Positions 21,387 to 36,490 of a stretch of 64,000 nucleotides of DNA are shown in pieces. A program made the position numbers and the translations under genes. The notes beneath the pieces were generated by a model. It saw only the letters and a list, made by a program, of their open reading frames with translations, was not told the origin of the DNA and made no database searches. Source of the stretch: Adlercreutzia faecimuris (GTDB lineage: Bacteria > Actinomycetota > Coriobacteriia > Coriobacteriales > Eggerthellaceae); the NCBI RefSeq assembly GCF_022669055.1, contig NZ_JAJMLW010000001.1, positions 992,001 through 1,056,000 on the forward strand, in the 5' to 3' direction. Numbering within the stretch: the first letter of the stretch is position 1; each line of letters starts with the position of its first letter.

Positions 21387-21788
21387 CTAGTCGGCGACGG
21401 CGTCGGCCAGGGTCATGCCGGCCAGGTAGTCGTGGATGGCGCGCTCCATGCCGCCCCAGATGCGCTGCGAGGGGCAGCCCTCGGCGCGCTCGCAGGCGAA
21501 GACGCCGCTCATGCAGTCGAGCAGCTCCAGGCCGTCCTCGCTGGCCGAGACGATGTCGGCCAGGCTGATGTCCTCGGGCGGGCGGGCCAGCTCGTAGCCG
21601 CCCTGGTAGCCGCGCGTCACGCGCAGCAGCCCGGCGGACGTGAGCGGCGCCACCACCTGCTCCAGGTACTTCTTCGAGATGCCCTGGCGCTCGGCCACGT
21701 CCTTCAGGGCGACGCAGCCGCCTTCGCGGTGCTGGGCCAGGTCGATCATGAACCGCATGCCGTAGCGGGTCTTCGTCGATATCTTCAT
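21387..21788 (-). CDS. Rrf2-family [Fe-S] regulator (IscR-like)
   Basis: A 133-residue regulator with an Rrf2 winged helix (MKISTKTRYGMRFMIDLAQH; GISKKYLEQVVAPLTSAGLL; RGYQGGYELARPPEDISLADIV). Three cysteines (C-x6-C-x5-C about residues 93-106) match the Fe-S ligand group of IscR-type proteins. It is divergent from the cysteine desulfurase and scaffold genes and very probably controls them in response to cluster supply. Confidence 0.88.
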   Translation of the reverse strand: MKISTKTRYGMRFMIDLAQHREGGCVALKDVAERQGISKKYLEQVVAPLTSAGLLRVTRGYQGGYELARPPEDISLADIVSASEDGLELLDCMSGVFACERAEGCPSQRIWGGMERAIHDYLAGMTLADAVAD

Positions 21789-21909
21789 CGGGCTCCTCTC
21801 CGGGGCTCCTCGTCCGCGCGCTGGCGCCGCCCGTCGCTCGCGGCCTCTCCCCACATCCTACGCGAGCGATGGCGATTTCGCGACCGCGGAATTAAATCTA
21901 CCAAAACAC

Positions 21910-21962
21910 TTGACATTGTCTCACGGCAGTCTATATTAAAGTCCAGCAAATTACTAGACAAT
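21910..21962 (+). promoter_or_regulatory. Promoter and candidate Rrf2 operator of iscS-iscU
   Basis: TTGACA (21910-21915), a 16-nt spacer and TATATT (21932-21937) form a good promoter. Inverted arms ATTGTCT (21915-21921) and AGACAAT (21956-21962) flank the -10 and start site and may bind the divergent Rrf2 protein. Confidence 0.55.
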
Positions 21963-21980
21963 GAGGATCCGAGGACACCC

Positions 21981-23186
21981 ATGAAGCAGATATACCTGGA
22001 CAACGCGTCGACCACCCCGGTTCGCCCCGAGGTACTCGAGGCCATGATGCCCTACTTCGCCGAGGACTTCGGCAACCCCTCGTCGCTCTACCCGGCCGGC
22101 CAGCGCGCCTCCGACGCCGTTGCGGCGGCCCGCGCCACGCTGGCGGGGCTCATCGGCGCCAAGCCGTCCGAGGTGTACTTCACCAGCGGCGGCTCCGAGG
22201 CCGACAACTGGGCGATCAAGGGCTTCGCCCGCGCCAACGCCGGCAAGGGGCGCCACCTGATCACCAGCGCCATCGAGCACCACGCGGTGCTGCATGCCTG
22301 CGAGGCGCTCGAGCGCGAGGGCTTTGAGGTCACCTACCTGCCCGTCGACGGCGACGGCCTGGTCGACCCGGCCGCCTTCGAGGCCGCCATCCGCCCCGAC
22401 ACCATCCTGGCGTCGGTCATGTTCGCCAACAACGAGATCGGCACCATCGAGCCCATCGCCGAGCTGGCCGCCATCGCCCGCGCCCACGGCGTCGCCTTCC
22501 ACACCGACGCGGTGCAGGCCTTCGGCCACGAGGACATCGACGTGCGCGAGCTGGGCATCGACCTTCTGAGCGCGTCGGCCCACAAGCTCAACGGCCCCAA
22601 GGGCGTCGGGATGCTCTACGCGCGCAAGGGCGTCAAGCTGGCCAACCTCATCGACGGCGGCCAGCAGGAGCGCGGGCGGCGCGCCACCACCGAGAACGTG
22701 CCCGGCATCGTGGGCTTCGCCAAGGCCGCCGAGCTGGCCTGCGCCGAGGCGGCCGGCGAGCGCGAGCGGCAGACGGCCATCCGCGACCACGCCATCGCCC
22801 GCGTGCTCGCCGAGATCCCGCACGCGCGCCTCAACGGCAGCGCGACGAGGCGGCTGTCGAACAACGTCAACTTCTCCTTCGAGTTCATCGAGGGGGAGGG
22901 GATGCTGCTCCAGCTGGCGGCGCGCGGCATCTGCGTGTCGTCGGGCAGCGCCTGCACGTCGGGCTCGCTCGACCCGAGCCACGTGCTGCTGGCCATCGGC
23001 CTGCCGCATGAGATCGCCCACGGCTCGCTGCGCCTGACGCTCGGCCGCGACACCACGCGCGAGGACGTCGACTTCGCCATCGACTGCCTCAAGCAGACGC
23101 TCGGCAACCTGCGGATGATGAGCCCGCTTTACGAGGACTACCAGCAGGGCCGCGTCGAGTCGATCATCGAGAAGATGGCCGCCTAG
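21981..23186 (+). CDS. Cysteine desulfurase (IscS/NifS)
   Basis: A 401-residue PLP enzyme of the NifS/IscS class: IYLDNASTTPVRPEVLEAM at the start, TSGGSEADNWAIKG, the PLP-lysine region ASAHKLNGPKGVG, the GGQQERGRRATTENVPGIVGF segment and the catalytic-Cys loop SSGSACTSGSLDPSHVL. It delivers cysteine sulfur to the IscU scaffold encoded 33 nt downstream. ATG 21981 is preferred; an in-frame-looking ATG at 21961 lies within the operator. Confidence 0.95.
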   Translation: MKQIYLDNASTTPVRPEVLEAMMPYFAEDFGNPSSLYPAGQRASDAVAAARATLAGLIGAKPSEVYFTSGGSEADNWAIKGFARANAGKGRHLITSAIEHHAVLHACEALEREGFEVTYLPVDGDGLVDPAAFEAAIRPDTILASVMFANNEIGTIEPIAELAAIARAHGVAFHTDAVQAFGHEDIDVRELGIDLLSASAHKLNGPKGVGMLYARKGVKLANLIDGGQQERGRRATTENVPGIVGFAKAAELACAEAAGERERQTAIRDHAIARVLAEIPHARLNGSATRRLSNNVNFSFEFIEGEGMLLQLAARGICVSSGSACTSGSLDPSHVLLAIGLPHEIAHGSLRLTLGRDTTREDVDFAIDCLKQTLGNLRMMSPLYEDYQQGRVESIIEKMAA

Positions 23187-23219
23187 GCCGCCCATCCCAG
23201 TCAGAAAGAGAGAACCATC

Positions 23220-23693
23220 ATGGCTATGAACTACTCCGAGGCGGTCATGGACCACTTCACCAACCCGCGCAACGTCGGCGAGATCGAGGGCGCGAGCGGC
23301 TGCGGCACCGTGGGCAATGCGGTATGCGGCGATATCATGCGCATCTACCTGGACATCGACGACGACAGCGTCATCCGCGACGCCAAGTTCAAGACCTTCG
23401 GCTGCGGTGCGGCCATCGCCACCAGCTCCATGGCCACCGAGCTGGTGAAGGGCAAGACCGTCCAGCAGGCGCTCGAGGTGACCAACAAGGCGGTCATGGA
23501 GGCGCTCGACGGGCTGCCGCCGGTGAAGGTGCACTGCTCGCTTTTGGCCGAGGAGGCCATCCACGCGGCGCTGTGGGACTATGCCGAGAAGCACAACCTG
23601 GTGATCGAGGGCCTCGAGAAGCCGGTGAGCGACATCGGCGAGCACGACCACCATCACGGCGTCGAGCTCGTGGAGGATGCGGACGACCTGTAG
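23220..23693 (+). CDS. Iron-sulfur cluster scaffold protein (IscU/NifU N-terminal type)
   Basis: A 157-residue scaffold: MNYSEAVMDHFTNPRNVGEI, GNAVCGDIM (first Cys), KTFGCGAAIATSSM (second Cys), then KVHCSLLAEEAIHAAL (third Cys). The extended C terminus contains a His-rich stretch (EHDHHHG) that might bind metal. With the desulfurase and the Rrf2 regulator it forms the minimal Isc system for the many Fe-S enzymes of this region. Confidence 0.94.
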   Translation: MAMNYSEAVMDHFTNPRNVGEIEGASGCGTVGNAVCGDIMRIYLDIDDDSVIRDAKFKTFGCGAAIATSSMATELVKGKTVQQALEVTNKAVMEALDGLPPVKVHCSLLAEEAIHAALWDYAEKHNLVIEGLEKPVSDIGEHDHHHGVELVEDADDL

Positions 23694-26543: not shown

Positions 26544-28133
26544 ATGCCTAAGGGAACCTACGCGTTCACCACGCCGATCTACTACGTCAACGCCGCGCCG
26601 CACCTGGGGACGGCCTACACCACCATCGCCGCCGACACCGTGGCGCGCTACCAGCGCATGAACGGGCGCGAGGTGGCCTTCGTCACCGGCATGGACGAGC
26701 ACGGCCAGAAGGTGGCCGACGTGGCCGCCGAGCACGGCATGACGCCGCAGGCCTGGTGCGACTCGATGGAGCCCGCCTTCCGCGAGGCGTGGGACATGCT
26801 CGGCATCACCTACACCGACTTCGTGCGCACCACCGAGCCGCGCCACGCGCGCTCCGTCCAGAGGTTCTGGACCGACCTCTACGACAAGGGCTACCTCTAC
26901 AAGGGCGCCTACGAGGGCTGGTACTGCGTCCACGAGGAGACCTACTACGCCGAGAGCGACCTGGAGAAGGACGAGGAGGGCACCTTCGTCTGCCCCGACT
27001 GCAAGCGCCCCGTGCAGCTGATGGCCTCGGGCGAGGAGAACTGGTTCTTCAAGCTGTCCGAGTTCCAGCAGCCGCTGCTCGACTTCTACGAGGCGCACCC
27101 CGACTTCATCCGCCCCGAGTCGCGCAGAAACGAGATCGTGTCGTTCGTGAGCCGCGGGCTGAAGGACCTCTCCATCAGCCGCTCCACCTTCGACTGGGGC
27201 GTGCCGCTGCCCTTCGACGAGGGCCACGTCGCCTACGTGTGGGCCGACGCGCTCATCGCCTACCTCACGGGCATCGGGTACGCCGACCCCGACCGCCCCG
27301 GCGAGTTCGACGCCGCCTGGCCCATGCAGTACCACTTCGTGGGGAAGGACATCATCCGCTTCCACTGCGTCATCTGGCCGGCCATGCTCATGGCGGCCGG
27401 GCTGCCCGTCACCCACACCGTCTTCGGCCACGGCTTCCTCCTCACCAAGGGCGAGAAGATGTCGAAGTCGAAGGGCAACGCCGTGCGCCCCGCCGACCTG
27501 GTGCGCGTGTTCGGCGTGGACGCCTACCGCTACTACTTCATGAGCGACGTGCAGTTCGGCCACGACGGGTCCATCTCGCTCGAGCGCATGGTGCAGGTGT
27601 ACAACAACGAGCTGGCCAACACCTGGGGCAACCTGGTGTCGCGCGTGTTCAACATGACGAAGAAGTACTTCGACGCGCTGGTGCCCGCGGTGCCGGTGTC
27701 GATGGCGGGCGCCGACAACCCGCTGCGCGACGAGGCCGCCGGCCTGTACGCGGCCTATGACGCGGCCATGGAGCAGGTCGACTTCACCGCGGCCGCGGCG
27801 GCGGCGCAGCGCCTGGCCGCCCGCGCCAACCGCTACATCGAGGAGACCGAGCCCTTCAAGCTGGCGAAGGATCCGGAGCGCGCCGACGAGCTGGCCTTCG
27901 TCATGTACAACCTGCTCGAGGCCATCCGCATCCTGGCGCTGTACTTCGCGCCGTTCGCGCCCGCCACGTCGGCTGAGGTCTTCCGCCGCCTGCACCTGGG
28001 CGACGTGACGGGCGTCGACGACATCGAGGCCGCCACCGCCTGGGGCCAGCTGCCCGCCGGCAACCTGGTGGAGACGGGCGACCCGCTCTTCCCCCGCCTC
28101 GACGCCGAGACCATCGACCTGGAGATGGAGTAG
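26544..28133 (+). CDS. metG: Methionyl-tRNA synthetase
   Basis: A 529-residue class I synthetase: PIYYVNAAPHLGTAYT holds the HIGH-equivalent motif and KGEKMSKSKGN the KMSKS loop. A zinc-knuckle insertion (CVHEETYYAE...CPDCKR) lies about residues 130-155, and the anticodon-binding helical domain follows KYFDAL. The C-terminal tRNA-binding domain found in some MetRS is absent. GAGGAG precedes the ATG. The TatD gene follows 2 nt after the stop, a common metG-tatD linkage. Confidence 0.96.
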   Translation: MPKGTYAFTTPIYYVNAAPHLGTAYTTIAADTVARYQRMNGREVAFVTGMDEHGQKVADVAAEHGMTPQAWCDSMEPAFREAWDMLGITYTDFVRTTEPRHARSVQRFWTDLYDKGYLYKGAYEGWYCVHEETYYAESDLEKDEEGTFVCPDCKRPVQLMASGEENWFFKLSEFQQPLLDFYEAHPDFIRPESRRNEIVSFVSRGLKDLSISRSTFDWGVPLPFDEGHVAYVWADALIAYLTGIGYADPDRPGEFDAAWPMQYHFVGKDIIRFHCVIWPAMLMAAGLPVTHTVFGHGFLLTKGEKMSKSKGNAVRPADLVRVFGVDAYRYYFMSDVQFGHDGSISLERMVQVYNNELANTWGNLVSRVFNMTKKYFDALVPAVPVSMAGADNPLRDEAAGLYAAYDAAMEQVDFTAAAAAAQRLAARANRYIEETEPFKLAKDPERADELAFVMYNLLEAIRILALYFAPFAPATSAEVFRRLHLGDVTGVDDIEAATAWGQLPAGNLVETGDPLFPRLDAETIDLEME

Positions 28134-28135
28134 CC

Positions 28136-29104
28136 GTGGCGCGCGAGGACGAGCCCGTCTTCCGGGACCAGTTCTTCCGGAGGAAGAGGCGCAACGGGGA
28201 ATGGGAGGTGGTGGCGTCGCCGACGCTGTTCACGTCGGTCGCCGACACCCACGCGCACCTGCAGCTGCTGCCCGACCCGGGGCTCGCGCTGGCGCGCGCG
28301 GCCCTGCACAAGGTGCGCTTCATCGAGACCATCGTGGACGTGTGGGAAGACGGCGATACGACCTTCGAGAAGCTGGGGGAGTGGAAGCGCGAGGGCGCCA
28401 TCGGCATCCGCACCATCGCCCGCCACTGTTGAGGCGTGCCCATTCCGTGCGTGCCACGGATCCGCATCGCCATCGGGTGCCATCCCCATAACGCCGCGCA
28501 CTACGACGACGCCTTGGAGGCGCGCCTGCGCGAGCGCCTGCACGACGAGAACGTGAGCGCCGTGGGGGAGATCGGGCTCGACTACCACTACGACCTGTCG
28601 CCGCGCGAGGACCAGCGCGAGGCGTTCCGCCGCCAGATCCGCCTGGCGAAGGAGGCCGGCCTGCCCGTCGTGCTGCACCTACGCGAGGCTCACGACGACG
28701 GCTTCGCCATCCTGTCGGAGGAGGGATTCCCCGAGGCGGGGACGCTGCTGCACTGCTTCAACCTGGACGCTGCCGAGCTCGCCCGCTGGGTGGACGCGGG
28801 CTGCTACATCGCCTTCGGCGGGCCGCTCACGTTCAAGAAGGCCGACTACGTGCGCGAGGCGGCCAAGCTGGTGCCCCTCGACCGGCTGCTCACCGAGACG
28901 GACGCGCCCTACATGACGCCCGAGCCCCTGCGCGGCACCACCTGCGGGCCCGAGCACGTCGTGTTCACGGCGGCCAAGCTGGCCGACGTGCGCGGCTTCG
29001 AGGGCGACCGCACGCCGGCGCGCTGGGAGTTCATGCGCCACACGCTGGAGAACGCGCTCGGGCTGCTCGACCGCGAGCCGACGCCCTGGCAGCGCGGGGA
29101 ATAG
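28136..29104 (+). CDS. tatD: TatD-family metal-dependent hydrolase with in-frame UGA (predicted selenoprotein)
   Basis: Read through the TGA at 28430-28432, this is a 322-residue TatD hydrolase with U99 directly after C98. The metal ligands are split across the stop: THAHL (His-x-His) lies upstream, while GEIGLDYHY (Glu), VVLHLREA (His), LLHCFN (His) and TETDAPYM (Asp) lie downstream, so neither half alone could be a complete enzyme. Both halves are in the same reading frame and equally GC3-biased. A 17-nt hairpin starts exactly 11 nt after the UGA with GU in its loop, as in the minimal E. coli SECIS, and tRNA-Sec, selB and selA follow at once. The residues around U99 (ARHC-U-GVPIPC) are a short insert before the IAIGCHPHN strand, so Cys98-Sec99 could be redox-active. 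A plain nonsense mutation remains the alternative. Confidence 0.8.
28444..28460 (+). promoter_or_regulatory. Candidate bacterial SECIS hairpin in tatD
   Basis: A 6-bp stem (28444-28449 with 28455-28460) with loop CGTGC; 11 nt separate it from the UGA. The stem-loop length of 17 nt, the spacing and a GU in the apical loop match the minimal E. coli element bound by SelB. Confidence 0.65.
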
Positions 29105-29151: not shown

Positions 29152-29185
29152 GCGGGCCCCGCGACCTGGTGGTCGCGGGGCCCGC
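29152..29185 (-). terminator. Terminator of the tRNA-Sec gene
   Basis: A 15-bp perfect stem (29152-29166 with 29171-29185) with a 4-nt loop. On the minus strand it is followed by CTTTCTTCC. It lies just past the 3' end of tRNA-Sec and may also stop the tatD transcript arriving from the other side. Confidence 0.8.
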
Positions 29186-29194
29186 GCGCGTCTC

Positions 29195-29291
29195 TGGCGG
29201 AGATGCGTGCGAATCGAACACACCCGAGACGTTCTGCGCGCCTCACAACGGCTTTGAAGGCCGCGGGGGCCACCAGGCCCCATTCATCTCC
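29195..29291 (-). tRNA. selC: tRNA-Sec (anticodon TCA)
   Basis: A 97-nt tRNA with an encoded CCA. The hallmarks of bacterial tRNA-Sec are present: an 8-nt acceptor arm, a 6-bp D stem (GGGGCC/GGCCCC) closed by a 4-nt loop, anticodon TCA at 29255-29257 on the minus strand, a long variable arm and a GTGTG/CGCAC T stem with TTCGATT loop. It reads UGA as selenocysteine with SelA and SelB, whose genes lie upstream on the same strand. Confidence 0.95.
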
Positions 29292-29542: not shown

Positions 29543-31468
29543 CTAGCGCTCCACCAGGACGCGGAGGTCGCCCTCGCGGCGGGTGAGGCCCTCGGCGTCG
29601 AAGCGCTCGAGCAGCGGCATCGCGTACTTGCGGGTGATGCCCATGGCGTCCTTGAGGTCGGCGGCCGTGGCGGGCCCCCGCTCGCGGATGAGGCCGGCCA
29701 CCAGCTGGCGGTAGCCCTCCACCACCGCGGCGTCGTAGAAGCGCTCCGAGTCGATGCGCACGGCGCGCCCGTCGCGCTCGAGGGCCGCGGCGGCCTTGCG
29801 GGCCTGGGGCATCGCCATGCCGGACTGCTCGCAGAACTCGGGCAGCGTCGGCGGCATCCCTGCGGCCGCGGCCAGCGCCGCGGACAGCTGGTCGGCCGCC
29901 TCGGCCTCGGCCATGCGCGCTCCGGCGCCGGCCTTGGGGTGGCTCACCTCGCCGCCGGAGCGCACCGCGGCCCCGCGCCGGACGGCCTCGTCGAGCAGCG
30001 CGTCGAAGACCGCCGGCGCCGCGGCGGGCGCGGCGGCCTGGCGCAGGGCATCCTTGGCCATGCCCGTGGCCCGGGGGTCGGCGGCGTGGAAGCCCGTGAG
30101 CGCCCGCTCCACGGCGGCGACCGCCTTCTGGATGAGGGCCGGCCGGGCGTAGAGCGGCTCGCGCCCCTCCAGCACGGCCACGGCGCCCTCGTCGGCCAGG
30201 CGCCCGAGGGCCGCGGCGGTGGTCGCCTCGTCCAGCCCCGCGGCCGCGGCCACCTCGGCCAGCGGCTCGGGCAGCGCGGCGAGCCCCAGGTGGGCCCCCA
30301 CGGCGCCGTCCACGTCGCCCTCGCCGAGCGCACCGAGCAGCAGCCGCTCCTCGTCCTTGAGGTTGGTGCGTCGCCGCGGGTGGGCGGCGAGCACCGTGCC
30401 GCCGCCGATGACGTGGACGGGGGAGTAGGAGCGCACGATGAAGCGGTCGCGGTAGGCCACGGGCAGCGGCTCCTCCAGGCGCAGCTGCGCGAACGCCGTC
30501 TCGCCGGGGGCGAGCGCCTCACGCCCGTCCATGAGCAGCACGCGCCCGAGCACCTCGCGGGTGCCGTGGGCCACGTGCACGCGGGCGCCGGTCTTGAGCG
30601 GCTTGCCCAGGGCGAAGGGGTCGCGGTAGGCGAGCTCGGCGTCGAAGCGGTCGGTGGGCTCCACCGCGCCGGGCGCCGCCAGCAGGTCGCCGGGCCGCAC
30701 CTCGTCGGTGGACAGCCCCGCCAGGCTCACGGCCACGCGGTGCCCGGCCGCGGCCTCGGCGGCGTCATGGCCGTGCATCTGGATGCTGCGGACGCGGGTG
30801 GCCAGCCCCGCGGGCAGCACGACGAGCGGGTCGCCCTCGGCCACGGTGCCGCTCCAGAGCGTGCCGGTGGCCACGGTGCCGAAGCCCCGCACGGTGAACA
30901 CGCGGTCGACGGGCAGGCGCGCCGGGCCGTCGAGCTTGGTGCGCTCGGCGCGCGCGGCGGCCTCGTCGATGGCGGCCCGCAGATCGTCCAGGCCCTCGCC
31001 GGTGCGGCTCGACACGCCCACGATGGGCGCGCCCGCGTAGGGGCCGCCCTCAAGGCGCGCGGCCACCTCGCCGGCCACGAACTCGCGCCACTCGTCGTCC
31101 ACCAGGTCCACCTTCGTGAGCGCCACCACCAGCGTGCGCACGCCCAGGAGCTCCAGCACGGCCAGGTGCTCGACGGTCTGCGGCATCACGCCGTCGTCGG
31201 CCGCCACCACCAGCAGCGCCACGTCCACGCCGGTGGCGCCCGCCACCATCGAGCGCACGAAGCGCTCGTGGCCCGGCACGTCCACCACGCCGAGCGCGCG
31301 CCCGCTCGGCAGCTCGAGCTGCGCGAAGCCGAGCTCGATGGTGATGCCGCGGCGCTTCTCCTCGGCCAGGCGGTCGGGGTCGGTGCCGGTCAGCGCGCGG
31401 ACGAGGGAGGACTTGCCGTGGTCGATGTGGCCGGCGGTCCCCAGGATGAGGGAGGGCTGCGCGCTCAT
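29543..31468 (-). CDS. selB: Selenocysteine-specific translation elongation factor SelB
   Basis: A 641-residue GTPase: [19 protein letters not shown] (P-loop) at the N terminus, [10 protein letters not shown] switch [17 protein letters not shown], and TKVD for guanine recognition. EF-Tu-like domains 2 and 3 follow, and the C-terminal 200 residues form the winged-helix repeats that bind the SECIS hairpin (the last about [20 protein letters not shown]). It brings Sec-tRNA to UGA codons. The ATG overlaps the selA stop (ATGA), so selA and selB are coupled. Confidence 0.97.
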
Positions 31469-32985
31469 CGGGCCACCTCCCCGTCCCGGGCGCCGGACGG
31501 CCCGGCGTCGCCCGCCGCCCCGTAGCCTGCGCCCGCGTCCCCGCCCAGGGCGGCGGCCACGGCCTCGGCGACGAGCGGCAGCTCGTCCTCGGTCAGGGTG
31601 CGTGCGTCGAAGAGCAGCTGACCCTGGCGGATGCGGCCCACCACGGGCACGGCCGCGCGCCGGATGAGGGCCTCCTCGCAGCGCTGGGCGCCGTCCTCGG
31701 CGCGGAAGGCGAGCGCCACCGCCGCCGAGGGGATCTCCAGCAGCGGCAGGGTGCCGCCGCCCACGCAGCTCACCTCGTCGACCACCGACACCGCCGCCGC
31801 GCCGCCCACGGCGCCCTCGAGCAGCGCCGCCAGCCGCCCGGCGCGCTCGCGCACCGACGCAGCGGGCTCGGAGAGCATGGCGAGCGTGGGGATCTCGGCC
31901 AGGGCGCGCTCGGGCTCCAGGTACAGGCGCAGCGTGGCCTCGAGCGCGGCGAGCGTCATCTTGTCCAGGCGCAGGGCGCGCACCAGGGGGTTGGCCTTGA
32001 GCCGGTCGATGAGCGCGCGCCGCCCGATGACGATGCCCGCCTGCGGGCCGCCGAGCAGCTTGTCGCCCGAGAAGGACACCAGGTCGCACCCCTGGGCCAG
32101 CGCCTCGCCGGCCGTGGGCTCGGCGTCGGCGCCGAGCGCCGGCGGGCGCAGCAGCGCGCCCGAGCCCAGGTCCTCGTAGACGATGATGCCGGGCGCCGCG
32201 GGGTCGGCCGCCCGGCGCGCCGCCACGGCCGCGTCGGCGATGGCGCGCATGGCGGAGGCCGGCACCGTCTCGGTGAAGCCCACCACGCGGTAGTTGGAGG
32301 TGTGCACCTTCAGCAGCATGGCCGTGTCGGCGCCGATGGCGCGCTCGTAGTCGGCCGGGTGCGTCTTGTTGGTGGTGCCCACGCCCACCATGACGGCGCC
32401 GGACTGGGCCATGATGTCGGGGATGCGGAACGACCCGCCGATCTCCACCAGCTCGCCGCGGGACACCACGGCCTCGTGCCCGGCGGCGAACTCGGCCAGC
32501 ACGAGCATGACGGCGGCGGCGTTGTTGTTGACGGCGATGGCCGCCTCGGCCCCGGTGAGCGCGCAGAGCAGCCGCTCGCAGTGGCTGTGGCGGCTGCCGC
32601 GGGCCATGGCCTCGGTGTCGTACTCCAGCGTGGAGTACGACCGCGCCGCCTCCTCGACGGCGCGCACGGCGCTCTCGGCCAGGCAGCTGCGCCCGAGGTT
32701 GGTGTGGATGATGACGCCGGTGGCGTTGACCACCCGGCGCAGCGACGGGCGCTGGAAGCGGGCGAGCGCGGCCAGGGCCCCGTCGGCCAGGGCCTGCGCC
32801 GTCACATCCGCCTCCTCGCCGGCCAGGATGCGCGCCCGGGCGGCGTCGAGGGCCGCGCGCACGGCGTCGGCCACCCGGTCGCGGGGCGCCTGGCCGAGCG
32901 CCGCCGCCAGGGCGGGGAGGTTGAGCATCTGGTCGACGCTCGGCAGCGCCCGCAGGCGCTCGTTCAGGGACTTCTCTTCGCTCAT
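31465..32985 (-). CDS. selA: L-seryl-tRNA(Sec) selenium transferase SelA
   Basis: A 506-residue PLP enzyme converting seryl-tRNA-Sec to selenocysteinyl-tRNA: [49 protein letters not shown], and the PLP lysine in [18 protein letters not shown] 32985 follows AAGGAG. It is the first gene of the selA-selB unit and is divergent from the formate dehydrogenase operon. The selenophosphate synthetase gene selD is not in this window. Confidence 0.97.
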
Positions 32986-33343
32986 GGCTCTCCTTAGGGG
33001 GAGGGAAGGGGGGAAATTGCGTGGTACGACGCGCATTCTACCACCGCCGCGGCCCGCGCGCGGCGGCCTGGCGCCCCCTTGACAGAAGGCGGAAACCCCC
33101 CTGCGCCCCGGCCCTGCCCGCAGATCCGCCGCCCTCGCCCTCCTCCCTGGTCGCGACACGGTATTCACCAGGGAAAACTTCAGGTAGGGCCCTCATCAAT
33201 GGACGGAATCTGCAGAAAGCGGCCCGCGCGAGATCGCCAGGTGCGCCGCGGCCGCGTGCTGGTATGTTGCGTCGCGCCGAAAACGGGCCCCGGCGGGGCC
33301 CGCGAGGAAGTAGAAGGAGCGAGACGAGGAAAGGAGCAAGCCC
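32986..33343. promoter_or_regulatory. Divergent control region between selA and fdhA
   Basis: For selA (minus strand), TGGTAGAAT gives an extended -10 with TAGAAT at 33036-33041. For fdhA (plus strand), TGGTATGTT gives an extended -10 with TATGTT at 33263-33268, and a 7-bp hairpin (33285-33291 with 33295-33301) lies in the leader. The rest shows no gene. Confidence 0.45.
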
Positions 33344-36300
33344 ATGACACTGTCACGCCGCGGGTTCTTCAAGGCCACCGGCGCCGCGCTCGCCGCGACC
33401 ATGGCCTACGAGGTCACGGCCGCCTCGCCGGCCCTGGCCGTCGAGGCGTCGGGGGACTGGAAGCTCGTCAATACCGAGGAGTACACCAACATCTGCTGCT
33501 ACTGCGCCGGCGGATGCGGGTCGCTGTGCTCGGTGCGCGACGGCGAGCTGGTCAACCTGGAGGGCGACCCGGACCACCCCATCAACGAGGGCGGCCTGTG
33601 CCCCAAGGGCGCGGCCATGCTGCAGCTGCGCAACGTGGTGGACCCCGCCACGGGCGCCGTGTCCAAGAACGCCGACCGCGTCACCAAGCCGCTGGTGCGC
33701 CGTCCCGGCGCCGCCGACTGGGAGCCCATCTCCTGGCATGACGCCATCAAGGAGATCGCCCGCAAGGTGAAGGAGACGCGCGACGCCACCTTCGTCGAGG
33801 TCGAGGACGGCCTCACCGTCAACCGCTGCGAGGGCATCGCGAGCCTGGGCGGGTCCCAGCAGAACTCCGAGGAGGAGTACCTCATCCTGAAGATGATGAG
33901 GTCGCTCGGCCTGGTTGCCATCGACAACCAGGCGCGTGTTTGACACAGCCCCACCGTCGCCGGTCTGGCGGCATCATTCGGTCGCGGCTCCATGACGAGC
34001 CACTGGTGCGACTTCCAAAACGCCGACGTCATCCTCCACTGCGGGTCCAACTCCGCCGAGAACCACCCCGTCAGCGCCAAGTGGCTCAACCGGGCCCACG
34101 AGCGCGGCGCCAAGTGGATCGTCGTCGACCCCCGCTACACCCGCACCGCGGAGCTGGCGGACATCTACTGCCCCATCCGCTCGGGCACCGACATCGCCTT
34201 CTACGGCGGGCTCTGCAACTACATCATCGAGCATGACCTGTGGCAGCACGACTACGTGCTCAACTACACCAACGCGTCCTACCTGCTCGACCCCGACTAC
34301 GGGTTCGACCCGGCCACGGGCCTGTACTCCGGCTTCGACGCCGACAGCGCCACCTACTCCAACCGATCCTGGCACTACCAGGTGGAGAGCGAGTCGCACT
34401 GGGACACCGCGCCGGGCGGCGCGTACGCGTGGGCCGCGGCCCCCGGCGTGCCGGCCTTCACGCCCCCGACCGTCGAGCATCCCAAGCGCGATATGACGCT
34501 TGCCGACCCGCTGTGCGTCTGGCAGCAGTTCAAGAAGCACTACTCCCGCTACGACCTGGACACCGTATGTGCCATCTGCGGCATGGACAAGGAGACCCTC
34601 GAGCTGGTCTACGCCACCTACGCCGCCTCGGGCGCGCCGGACAAGTCGGGCACCATCCTCTACGCCCTGGGGCAGACCCAGCACACCTACGGCGCCCAGA
34701 ACACCCGCGCCATGTGCATCGTCCAGCTGCTGCTGGGCAACATCGGCATGGCCGGCGGCGGCGTGAACGCGCTGCGCGGCGAGCCCAACGTCCAGGGCGC
34801 CACCGACATGGGCATGATGGTCAACGAGCACCCCGCCTACCTCAAGTGGCCCAACACCACCGACCGCAAGAGCCTGCGCGACTGGATGGAGAGCCAGACC
34901 TACGCGGACGGCTACTACACCAACAAGCCCAAGTTCCTCGTGTCGAGCCTCAAGGAGTGGTGGGGCGAGCACGCCACGGCGGACAACGACTACGGCTACG
35001 ACTGGTGGCCCAAGGTGCACGCCGGCGGCCTCGCCGACACCATCATCCCGTCCTTCGAGATGATGGAGCAGGGAAAGATCCGCGGCTACTTCAACTGGGG
35101 CATGAACCCCGCCAACTCGGCGCCCAACACCGCCAACGTGCGCCAGTGCATGAGCAACCTCGACTGGCTCGTGGTGGTCGACCAGGTGGCCACCGAGTCG
35201 GCCACGTTCTGGAAGGCGCCGGACATGGACCCGGCCTCCATCGACACCACCGTGTTCCTGCTGCCCTGCGCGCTCATCTTCGAGAAGCCGGGCCTCATCC
35301 TGAACTCGGGCCGCTGGATCCAGTACCGCCACCAGGCCGTGGAGCCCTGGGACGAGGCGAAGCCCGACTACGAGATCTGCGACCTGCTGTGGCGCGAGAT
35401 CCGCGCCCTGTACGAGGCCGAGGGCGGCGCCAACCCGGCGCCGGTGCTCAACGCCAAGTGGGACTACTACGTGGACGGCAAGATCGACCCGCGCCCCGTG
35501 GCCTGGGCCCTCAACGGCTACCGCGTGGACGGCACTGACTTCGCCCGGGCCGAGGTCGACCTGTGCTCCGGCTACGGCGAGCTGGCCGCCGACGGCTCGA
35601 CCGCCTGCGCCATGTGGATCTACACCGGCTTCTGGGCCAACTCCGAGGCCCCGCTCGACCCCGAGAAGCAGGCGTGCTGCCGCCGCGGGCACGAGGATCC
35701 GAGCGGCCTGGGGCTGTACTCCAACTGGTCGTTCAGCTGGCCGTCCAACCGCCGCATCCTGTACAACCGCGCCTCGGCCGACCCCGCGGGGCGCCCGTGG
35801 AGCGCCGACAAGGTGCTCGTGGAGTGGACGGGCGAGGCCTGGAAGACCTTCGACCAGCCCGACTTCGTGGCCGCCCAGGGCGGCGTGCCCGTGCCGCCCA
35901 ACGACAACGCCTTCTTCATGCTGTGGGAGCAGAACGCCCGCCTGGAGAGCTACGCCATGGAGGACGGCCCGCTGCCCGAGCACTACGAGCCCTTCGAGTC
36001 GCCGACGGACGTGAACCCGCTCAACGGCGCCTTCAGCTCGCCGTGCATCCGCTTCGCCGACTACCCGTCCACGAAGCGCGGCACCAACGAGGAGTACCCC
36101 ATCGCCGCCACCACCTACTCGGTGGTCGAGCACTGGCAGACCGGCGGGCAGACCCGCATGTGCCCCGCGCTCATCGAGGCCATGCCCACCCAGTTCATCG
36201 AGCTGTCGCCCGAGCTCGCCGCCGAAAAGGGCATCAAGGCCGGCGACAAGGTGCGCGTGTGGAACAACCGCGGCTCGGCCGTGGTGGACTGCGTCATCAC

Positions 36301-36490
36301 GCACCGCTTCAAGCCGATGACGGTCAACGGCAAGCTGACCCACCTCGTGGGCATGACGCACCACTTCGGCTGGGCCGGCGTCTACGCCACCTCCGAGAGC
36401 ATGGTGAACGACCTCACCCCGAACGTGGGCGACCCGAACACCCAGGTGCCGGAGTACAAGGCGTTCCTCGTCGACATCGAGAAGGCATAG
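33344..36490 (+). CDS. Formate dehydrogenase catalytic subunit, selenocysteine-containing
   Basis: Read through the TGA at 33941-33943, the gene encodes 1048 residues with Sec200 in the context NQARV-U-HSPTVAGLAASFGRG, the classical active site of FdnG/FdhA enzymes. The Tat signal is SRRGFFK. An N-terminal [4Fe-4S] site is CCYCAGGCGSLC...LCPKG. Moco-binding blocks continue to the C terminus (ELSPELAAEKGIKAGDKVRV; MTHHFGWAG). It oxidises formate outside the membrane and sends electrons through the Fe-S and cytochrome b subunits that follow. The TGA is followed by a hairpin with loop GGTCT, the same as E. coli fdhF. GGAAAGGAG precedes the ATG. Confidence 0.95.
33956..33972 (+). promoter_or_regulatory. 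SECIS hairpin of the formate dehydrogenase gene
   Basis: A 6-bp stem with one G-T pair (33956-33961 with 33967-33972) and apical loop GGTCT, 12 nt after the UGA. The loop is identical to that of the E. coli fdhF element. Confidence 0.75.

Follow-up and report, generated by a model that had tools for sequence, protein, structure and literature searches.

The tatD gene of Adlercreutzia faecimuris that lies in the window (the whole stretch of 64,000 nucleotides that was analysed) is interrupted by a single in-frame TGA, and the comparison of related genomes implies that this codon is almost certainly decoded as selenocysteine (Sec99). We put at roughly 0.85 the probability of the complete reading, namely that the gene gives a full-length selenocysteine-containing TatD with an ordinary metal site and a separate selenol site on the opposite side of the barrel. 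The cell's own SelA/SelB/tRNA-Sec system would decode the UGA at codon 99 to produce a full-length TatD-family protein, and the hairpin located 11 nt downstream would direct the insertion of Sec at this codon. Such a protein seems to represent a kind of selenoprotein that is absent from the published catalogues that we compared, an earlier mention being possible. The new elements are the placement of Sec opposite the metal site and the existence of metal-less paralogues that keep both the Sec motif and the hairpin. The coordinates of the features are collected in Table 1.

Table 1. Features of the window (window positions) and of two related loci in other genomes (locus positions)
Feature	Position	Strand	Description and basis
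metG (methionyl-tRNA synthetase)	26544..28133	+	directly upstream of tatD; conserved neighbour
tatD (YabD-type) gene	28136..29104	+	322 codons, Sec-UGA at codon 99; ORF, Pfam, predicted structure
Conserved-motif coding segment	28427..28462	+	[C/T]-U-[G/S]-x-P-x-P-[R/C]-V-P-R-[V/I]
In-frame TGA, putatively read as selenocysteine (Sec99)	28430..28432	+	same codon TGA in 27 species, Cys in 10
Bacterial SECIS-like hairpin	28444..28460	+	6-bp stem, loop CGUGC with GU; covariation
tRNA-Sec	29199..29291	-	Rfam RF01852, 70.1 bits
selB	29543..31500	-	inside ORF 29543-32089, which starts too far upstream; translation, TIGR00475
selA ORF (selenocysteine synthase)	31465..33168	-	from translation; start codon provisional
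Formate-dehydrogenase-type selenoprotein gene	33344..36490	+	Sec-UGA 33941-33943, ARVUHSPTVAG
TatD-like paralogues near rho	L080:1956-2891 (G137), L079:202-1104 (G139)		Sec-UGA and hairpin kept, ligands lost

The reading frame extends from a GTG start to a TAG stop at 29102-29104, and the TGA is its only internal stop. The first-pass annotation had described an otherwise intact TatD gene with one in-frame TGA, and this description is confirmed by the frame, by the protein family profile and by the recurrence of the same arrangement in 27 species. The joined protein belongs to the TatD family according to the Pfam profile PF01026 (TatD_DNase; 196.8 bits against a cut-off of 27), while the NCBIfam model of the TatD exonuclease subfamily, TIGR00010, gives 189.3 bits and stays below its curated cut-off of 206. 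The metal ligands lie on both sides of the TGA, as had been noticed before: H39 and H41 precede it and E145, H181, H206, E254 and D256 follow it. These seven positions are invariant among 50 orthologues and correspond to the Group II TatD ligands (PMC4176340). The AlphaFold2 model of the window protein has a pLDDT of 95.4, its predicted fold is a TIM barrel, and the nearest folds in the PDB are TatD DNases, with the S. aureus TatD at the top. The TIM barrel, the full Group II ligand set and the metG-tatD gene order are shared with the TatD/YabD (YcfH-type) DNases (S. aureus 2GZX and 6L25; E. coli YcfH 1YIX; E. coli TatD, PMC4176340), whereas the window protein differs from them by an N-terminal extension of about 35 residues and by Sec in a loop that has no Sec/Cys motif in most orthologues. 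Judged by the presence of all ligands, the ordinary metal site appears to be kept and nuclease activity is likely retained. The metG gene precedes tatD in nearly all loci of the family, the two genes forming a probable operon, and yabD likewise follows metG in other Gram-positive bacteria. Therefore, we have an ordinary, vertically inherited tatD orthologue, and the Sec motif was built into that gene.

We investigated 138 Eggerthellaceae genomes, 135 of which have a TatD relative, and inspected the codon itself at about 90 loci. A search for TGA, Cys or other codons at residue 99 of the homologues had been proposed in the first-pass annotation; it returned TGA at exactly this position in 27 genomes, which represent 27 species from 12 genera with the source bacterium included, and Cys in ten orthologues, nine of which sit in genomes without detected Sec machinery. 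The tRNA-Sec is present in every one of the 27 genomes with the TGA, and SelB exceeds its curated cut-off in 25 of them as well; the two remaining genomes are assemblies that are 56% and 82% complete. None of the 62 genomes devoid of both Sec markers carries the TGA (Fisher p = 8.3e-9, a value that overstates independence because the genomes are related by descent). The shifts within genera agree in direction with this association. In genus g1 three species (G000-G002) have Sec and the fourth, G003, has Cys and no detected Sec machinery; in g55 and g61 the motif-less G089 and G116 are without detected Sec machinery and their sisters G090 and G115 have both; in g22, G081 and G082 have Sec and G024 has Cys although the Sec machinery is still present. 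A tree built without the motif columns by a quick method requires nine changes among Sec, Cys and none. Among the matches listed in an order-wide search of 397 genomes, no TGA was found at this tatD site outside Eggerthellaceae.

One would argue that the TGA is a plain stop, due to pseudogenization, truncation or a sequencing error, and that the sequence after it has no function or forms a small gene in its own right, as there is indeed an ORF with a GTG start downstream (28436-29104). However, the identical codon is TGA in 27 species without another stop in any of them, and the alignment of the 27 genes, searched for further TGA codons, contains none besides codon 99. Moreover, the metal ligands are divided between the two halves, the TGA is restricted to Sec-trait genomes, and the substitution pattern indicates that purifying selection acts on both sides of it: downstream of the TGA dN/dS is 0.04-0.18 in seven of eight pairs, the eighth having 0.48 and involving G082, which appears to carry an indel there. 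Thus a plain stop is hardly credible. TGA flags were also raised in G052, G101 and G391, and these were rejected as they fall elsewhere and not at the Sec site. G101 has no Sec trait; its assembly is 75% complete and without Sec machinery, the TGA in its tatD (locus L077) stands at codon 244 of the frame read, and it is either a genuine nonsense mutation or an assembly error.

The decoding of codon 99 as Sec is further supported by the RNA element that follows it. The 17-nt hairpin with GU in its loop, reported earlier to begin 11 nt past the TGA, was found exactly there (UCCGUG-CGUGC-CACGGA). The bSECIS model (PMC13188914) specifies a loop of 3-9 nt, a stem of 4-16 bp, a G within the first two loop positions, a loop placed 16-37 nt after the UGA and a minimum free energy of -7.5 kcal/mol or lower. 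The window hairpin has a loop of 5 nt (CGUGC) located 17 nt after the UGA and a stem of 6 bp, and the 45-nt element folds with -19.1 kcal/mol (z = -2.6); the 17-nt upper hairpin alone reaches -6.9 kcal/mol in the window and in one other species, which is weaker than the threshold, and -8.2 to -9.8 kcal/mol in the remaining species. The alignment comprises 28 segments, from 26 distinct orthologues and two paralogues, and the six stem pairs are formed in 99.4% of its cells. Two of the six pairs covary, which answers the call for a covariation analysis made with the first description of the hairpin: the outer pair changes from C-G to U-A in eight sequences and the fifth pair does so in three. The covariation score was not reached by any of 500 shuffles, and registers slid along the alignment gave at most 0.08 compared to 0.20 for the hairpin. 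The stem is intact in all 27 Sec genes and in none of the ten Cys genes; in G024, the Cys-bearing sister of a Sec species, it is disrupted through a change of CGG to CAG. The codons follow the same trend: when 77 conserved codons with four- or six-fold degeneracy are ranked by codon fixation, all five hairpin codons come within the first eleven, and Arg108 is encoded by CGG in 27 of 27 genes, in which CGG makes up 16% of the Arg codons. Like the SECIS elements of E. coli fdhF and of the formate-dehydrogenase gene in the window, the tatD element has its upper hairpin some 11-12 nt past the UGA and GU in the apical loop; unlike them, its stem has no bulged U, and its loop is CGUGC instead of GGUCU, with the GU one nucleotide closer to the UGA.

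A standard residue, for instance Trp or Cys, could also be inserted at the UGA through near-cognate readthrough or reassignment, without any selenium, and the sequence alone is compatible with this. However, the association with the Sec trait is 27 out of 27, the codon exchanges with Cys and not with Trp, and the SECIS-like hairpin stands at the required spacing and is gone once the codon is Cys, so selenium-free readthrough is very improbable. What we observe is the picture characteristic of bacterial selenoproteins, a UGA in a conserved ORF with homologues in which Sec and Cys are exchangeable, in a host that encodes tRNA-Sec and SelB. Therefore, the suggestion that the gene uses Sec at codon 99 has held up on four counts: Sec/Cys exchange, association with the Sec trait, a covarying hairpin and purifying selection after the TGA. 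A scan of other genes for a DNA pattern of the Sec module recovered only tatD, the tatD paralogues and two chance matches; the scan, in which two mismatches were allowed, had reduced sensitivity and missed genes of the AG type.

The genes for Sec decoding are close by in the window (Table 1), and TIGR00475 exceeds its cut-off at the genome position equivalent to the window selB. The first-pass annotation drew attention to tatD lying beside tRNA-Sec, selB and selA; this adjacency is real, but it is weak evidence, and we reject it as functional evidence because the family-wide neighbour of tatD is metG. The tRNA-Sec adjoins tatD only in the genus of the window. An ARAGORN prediction of a tRNA-Ala on the forward strand (29165-29252) overlaps the tRNA-Sec in antisense, is not confirmed by Rfam and is probably false. 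A standard ORF list shows the formate-dehydrogenase-type gene in two pieces, divided by its own Sec-UGA at 33941, and genes for a NifS-like cysteine desulfurase and an IscU-like protein occur at 21432-23693, a few kb upstream of the sel genes. The genome also harbors a second tRNA-Sec (L090:5001-5093, equal to G000:C1:727224-727316), which scores 75 bits compared to 70 for the window copy and differs from it at paired stem positions with compensating changes; two tRNA-Sec copies per genome are rare (PMC5330540). Beside this second copy lies a molybdopterin oxidoreductase gene (L090:1-2630), whose in-frame TGA falls in SYSHGASUGGVQW and which has a hairpin with a CGUG loop similar to that of tatD. 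Its best NCBIfam match, the tetrathionate reductase TtrA, is far below the cut-off, and the gene may encode a Sec molybdoenzyme distinct from formate dehydrogenase, served by a tRNA-Sec of its own.

In the predicted structure Sec99 is located in the loop 95-107, between helix 2 (75-94) and the strand beta-3 (108-114). A loop that precedes beta-3 in a TIM barrel lies at the N-terminal strand ends, and Sec99 is thus placed on the barrel face opposite the metal site, a placement argued from the modeled topology and given without a distance figure. This has consequences for the notion of a selenium-dependent TatD enzyme, put forward in the first-pass annotation. Taken as catalysis, it would have Sec act directly in the metal-dependent reaction, either binding a metal or serving as nucleophile, and make a selenium-boosted nuclease. 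Every catalytic ligand is kept in the Sec orthologues, as this notion would have it; however, in the model Sec99 precedes beta-3 and the ligands stand at the C-terminal strand ends, the full ligand set persists in many orthologues that have neither Sec nor Cys, and two Sec paralogues are without the ligands. It is thus highly improbable that Sec is part of the nuclease chemistry.

The two paralogues belong to G137 and G139 of genus g64, which also have an ordinary motif-less TatD (L158 and L159). They are TatD-like proteins encoded near rho and 51% identical to each other, and close relatives of them were not found in the other genomes of the family. Six of the seven ligands (H39, H41, E145, H181, H206 and D256) are lost, and in E. 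coli TatD mutation of the residues that correspond to E145 and D256 abolishes activity (PMC4176340). The fold is nonetheless predicted to be retained (pLDDT 91, with the Pfam TatD profile still matching), the motif U-G-A-P-x-P-R-V-P-R-I is kept and the hairpin is intact. That the Sec motif outlived the metal site in these proteins is the strongest argument for a role of Sec itself, which we consider probably separable from hydrolysis. Sec is accessory and not essential for the basic role of TatD, since several Sec-trait species have lost the motif.

Most likely, Sec provides a selenol/thiol site on the protein surface that would sense the redox state or electrophiles, or would exchange electrons with a partner, and on the back of the barrel it would act beside the nuclease, perhaps tuning the nuclease or its partners. 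That the role is redox sensing or electron exchange specifically is a tentative proposal, to which we give somewhat less than an even chance. A little more speculative is the idea that, opposite the metal centre, the TatD barrel has a further active site based on selenium, and that this site became the sole function of the metal-less proteins in two species of one genus.

A universal Sec-specific partner cysteine was not found among the 27 Sec genes and 50 orthologues: C207 and C223 are invariant and C270 is nearly so, and all three also occur in Sec-less orthologues. The neighbouring residue 98 is Cys in 19 of the 27 Sec forms, Thr in seven and Ser in one. Thioredoxin reductase, a protein with a flavin domain, has an adjacent Cys-Sec in its GCUG motif near the C-terminus. 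The 19 orthologues share with it the adjacent Cys-Sec, mostly followed by Gly, whereas the tatD motif stands in an internal loop, its Cys is not conserved and there is no flavin domain. One could therefore think of Cys98-Sec99 as a vicinal selenenylsulfide, a working redox pair as in thioredoxin reductase, which would fit the Cys of these 19 forms, the window protein (RHCUG) among them, and the Cys-Cys found in some Cys forms. Contrastingly, eight Sec orthologues have Thr or Ser at position 98 and the metal-less paralogue of G139 has Ala. Thus the redox pair suggested earlier exists as a sequence feature in most Sec forms and is not general; as the explanation of the motif it is unlikely, and it would be a lineage-specific refinement at most. 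Alternatively, the loop could bind or sequester a metal or a selenium species instead of performing redox chemistry, given a soft Sec/Cys ligand near other Cys/His in some species (HCUG...C in the window), but a second conserved soft ligand near Sec is missing from the 27 Sec genes, and we consider such binding improbable.

In its UGA with a bSECIS-like hairpin, its Cys homologues and its Sec-trait hosts, TatD is similar to the catalogued bacterial selenoproteins. In most of the catalogued families a thioredoxin-like fold is combined with redox motifs, and neither a TatD nor a metal-dependent TIM-barrel nuclease is among them (PMC9312934; PMC12013277). The earlier remark that TatD proteins normally have no selenocysteine agrees with the catalogues compared: neither a table of 87 prokaryotic selenoprotein families (PMC9312934) nor the nine families added by deep-Sep (PMC12013277) include TatD, and a 2026 review does not mention it in its text (PMC13188914). 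A selenoprotein model for TatD does not exist in NCBIfam, and searches of the freely readable literature for TatD as a selenoprotein or with selenocysteine turned up nothing relevant.

The hosts are prevalent gut bacteria, in which annotation may list genes of this kind as truncated or as pseudogenes. The changes from Sec to Cys and from Sec to nothing within genera, together with the pseudo-enzyme paralogues that keep Sec, are natural experiments on the role of selenium. The E. coli tatD mutants are sensitive to H2O2 (PMC4176340), which makes a redox link to DNA repair a testable idea, and methods for transformation, deletion and genome editing are published for E. lenta DSM 2243 (PMC9734109). 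With this protein a nuclease-type TIM barrel joins a selenoprotein world dominated by redox folds. If the proposed selenol site is true, the TatD-like selenoproteins would be a distinct TIM-barrel class with a selenol-based redox or regulatory function, derived from a nuclease.
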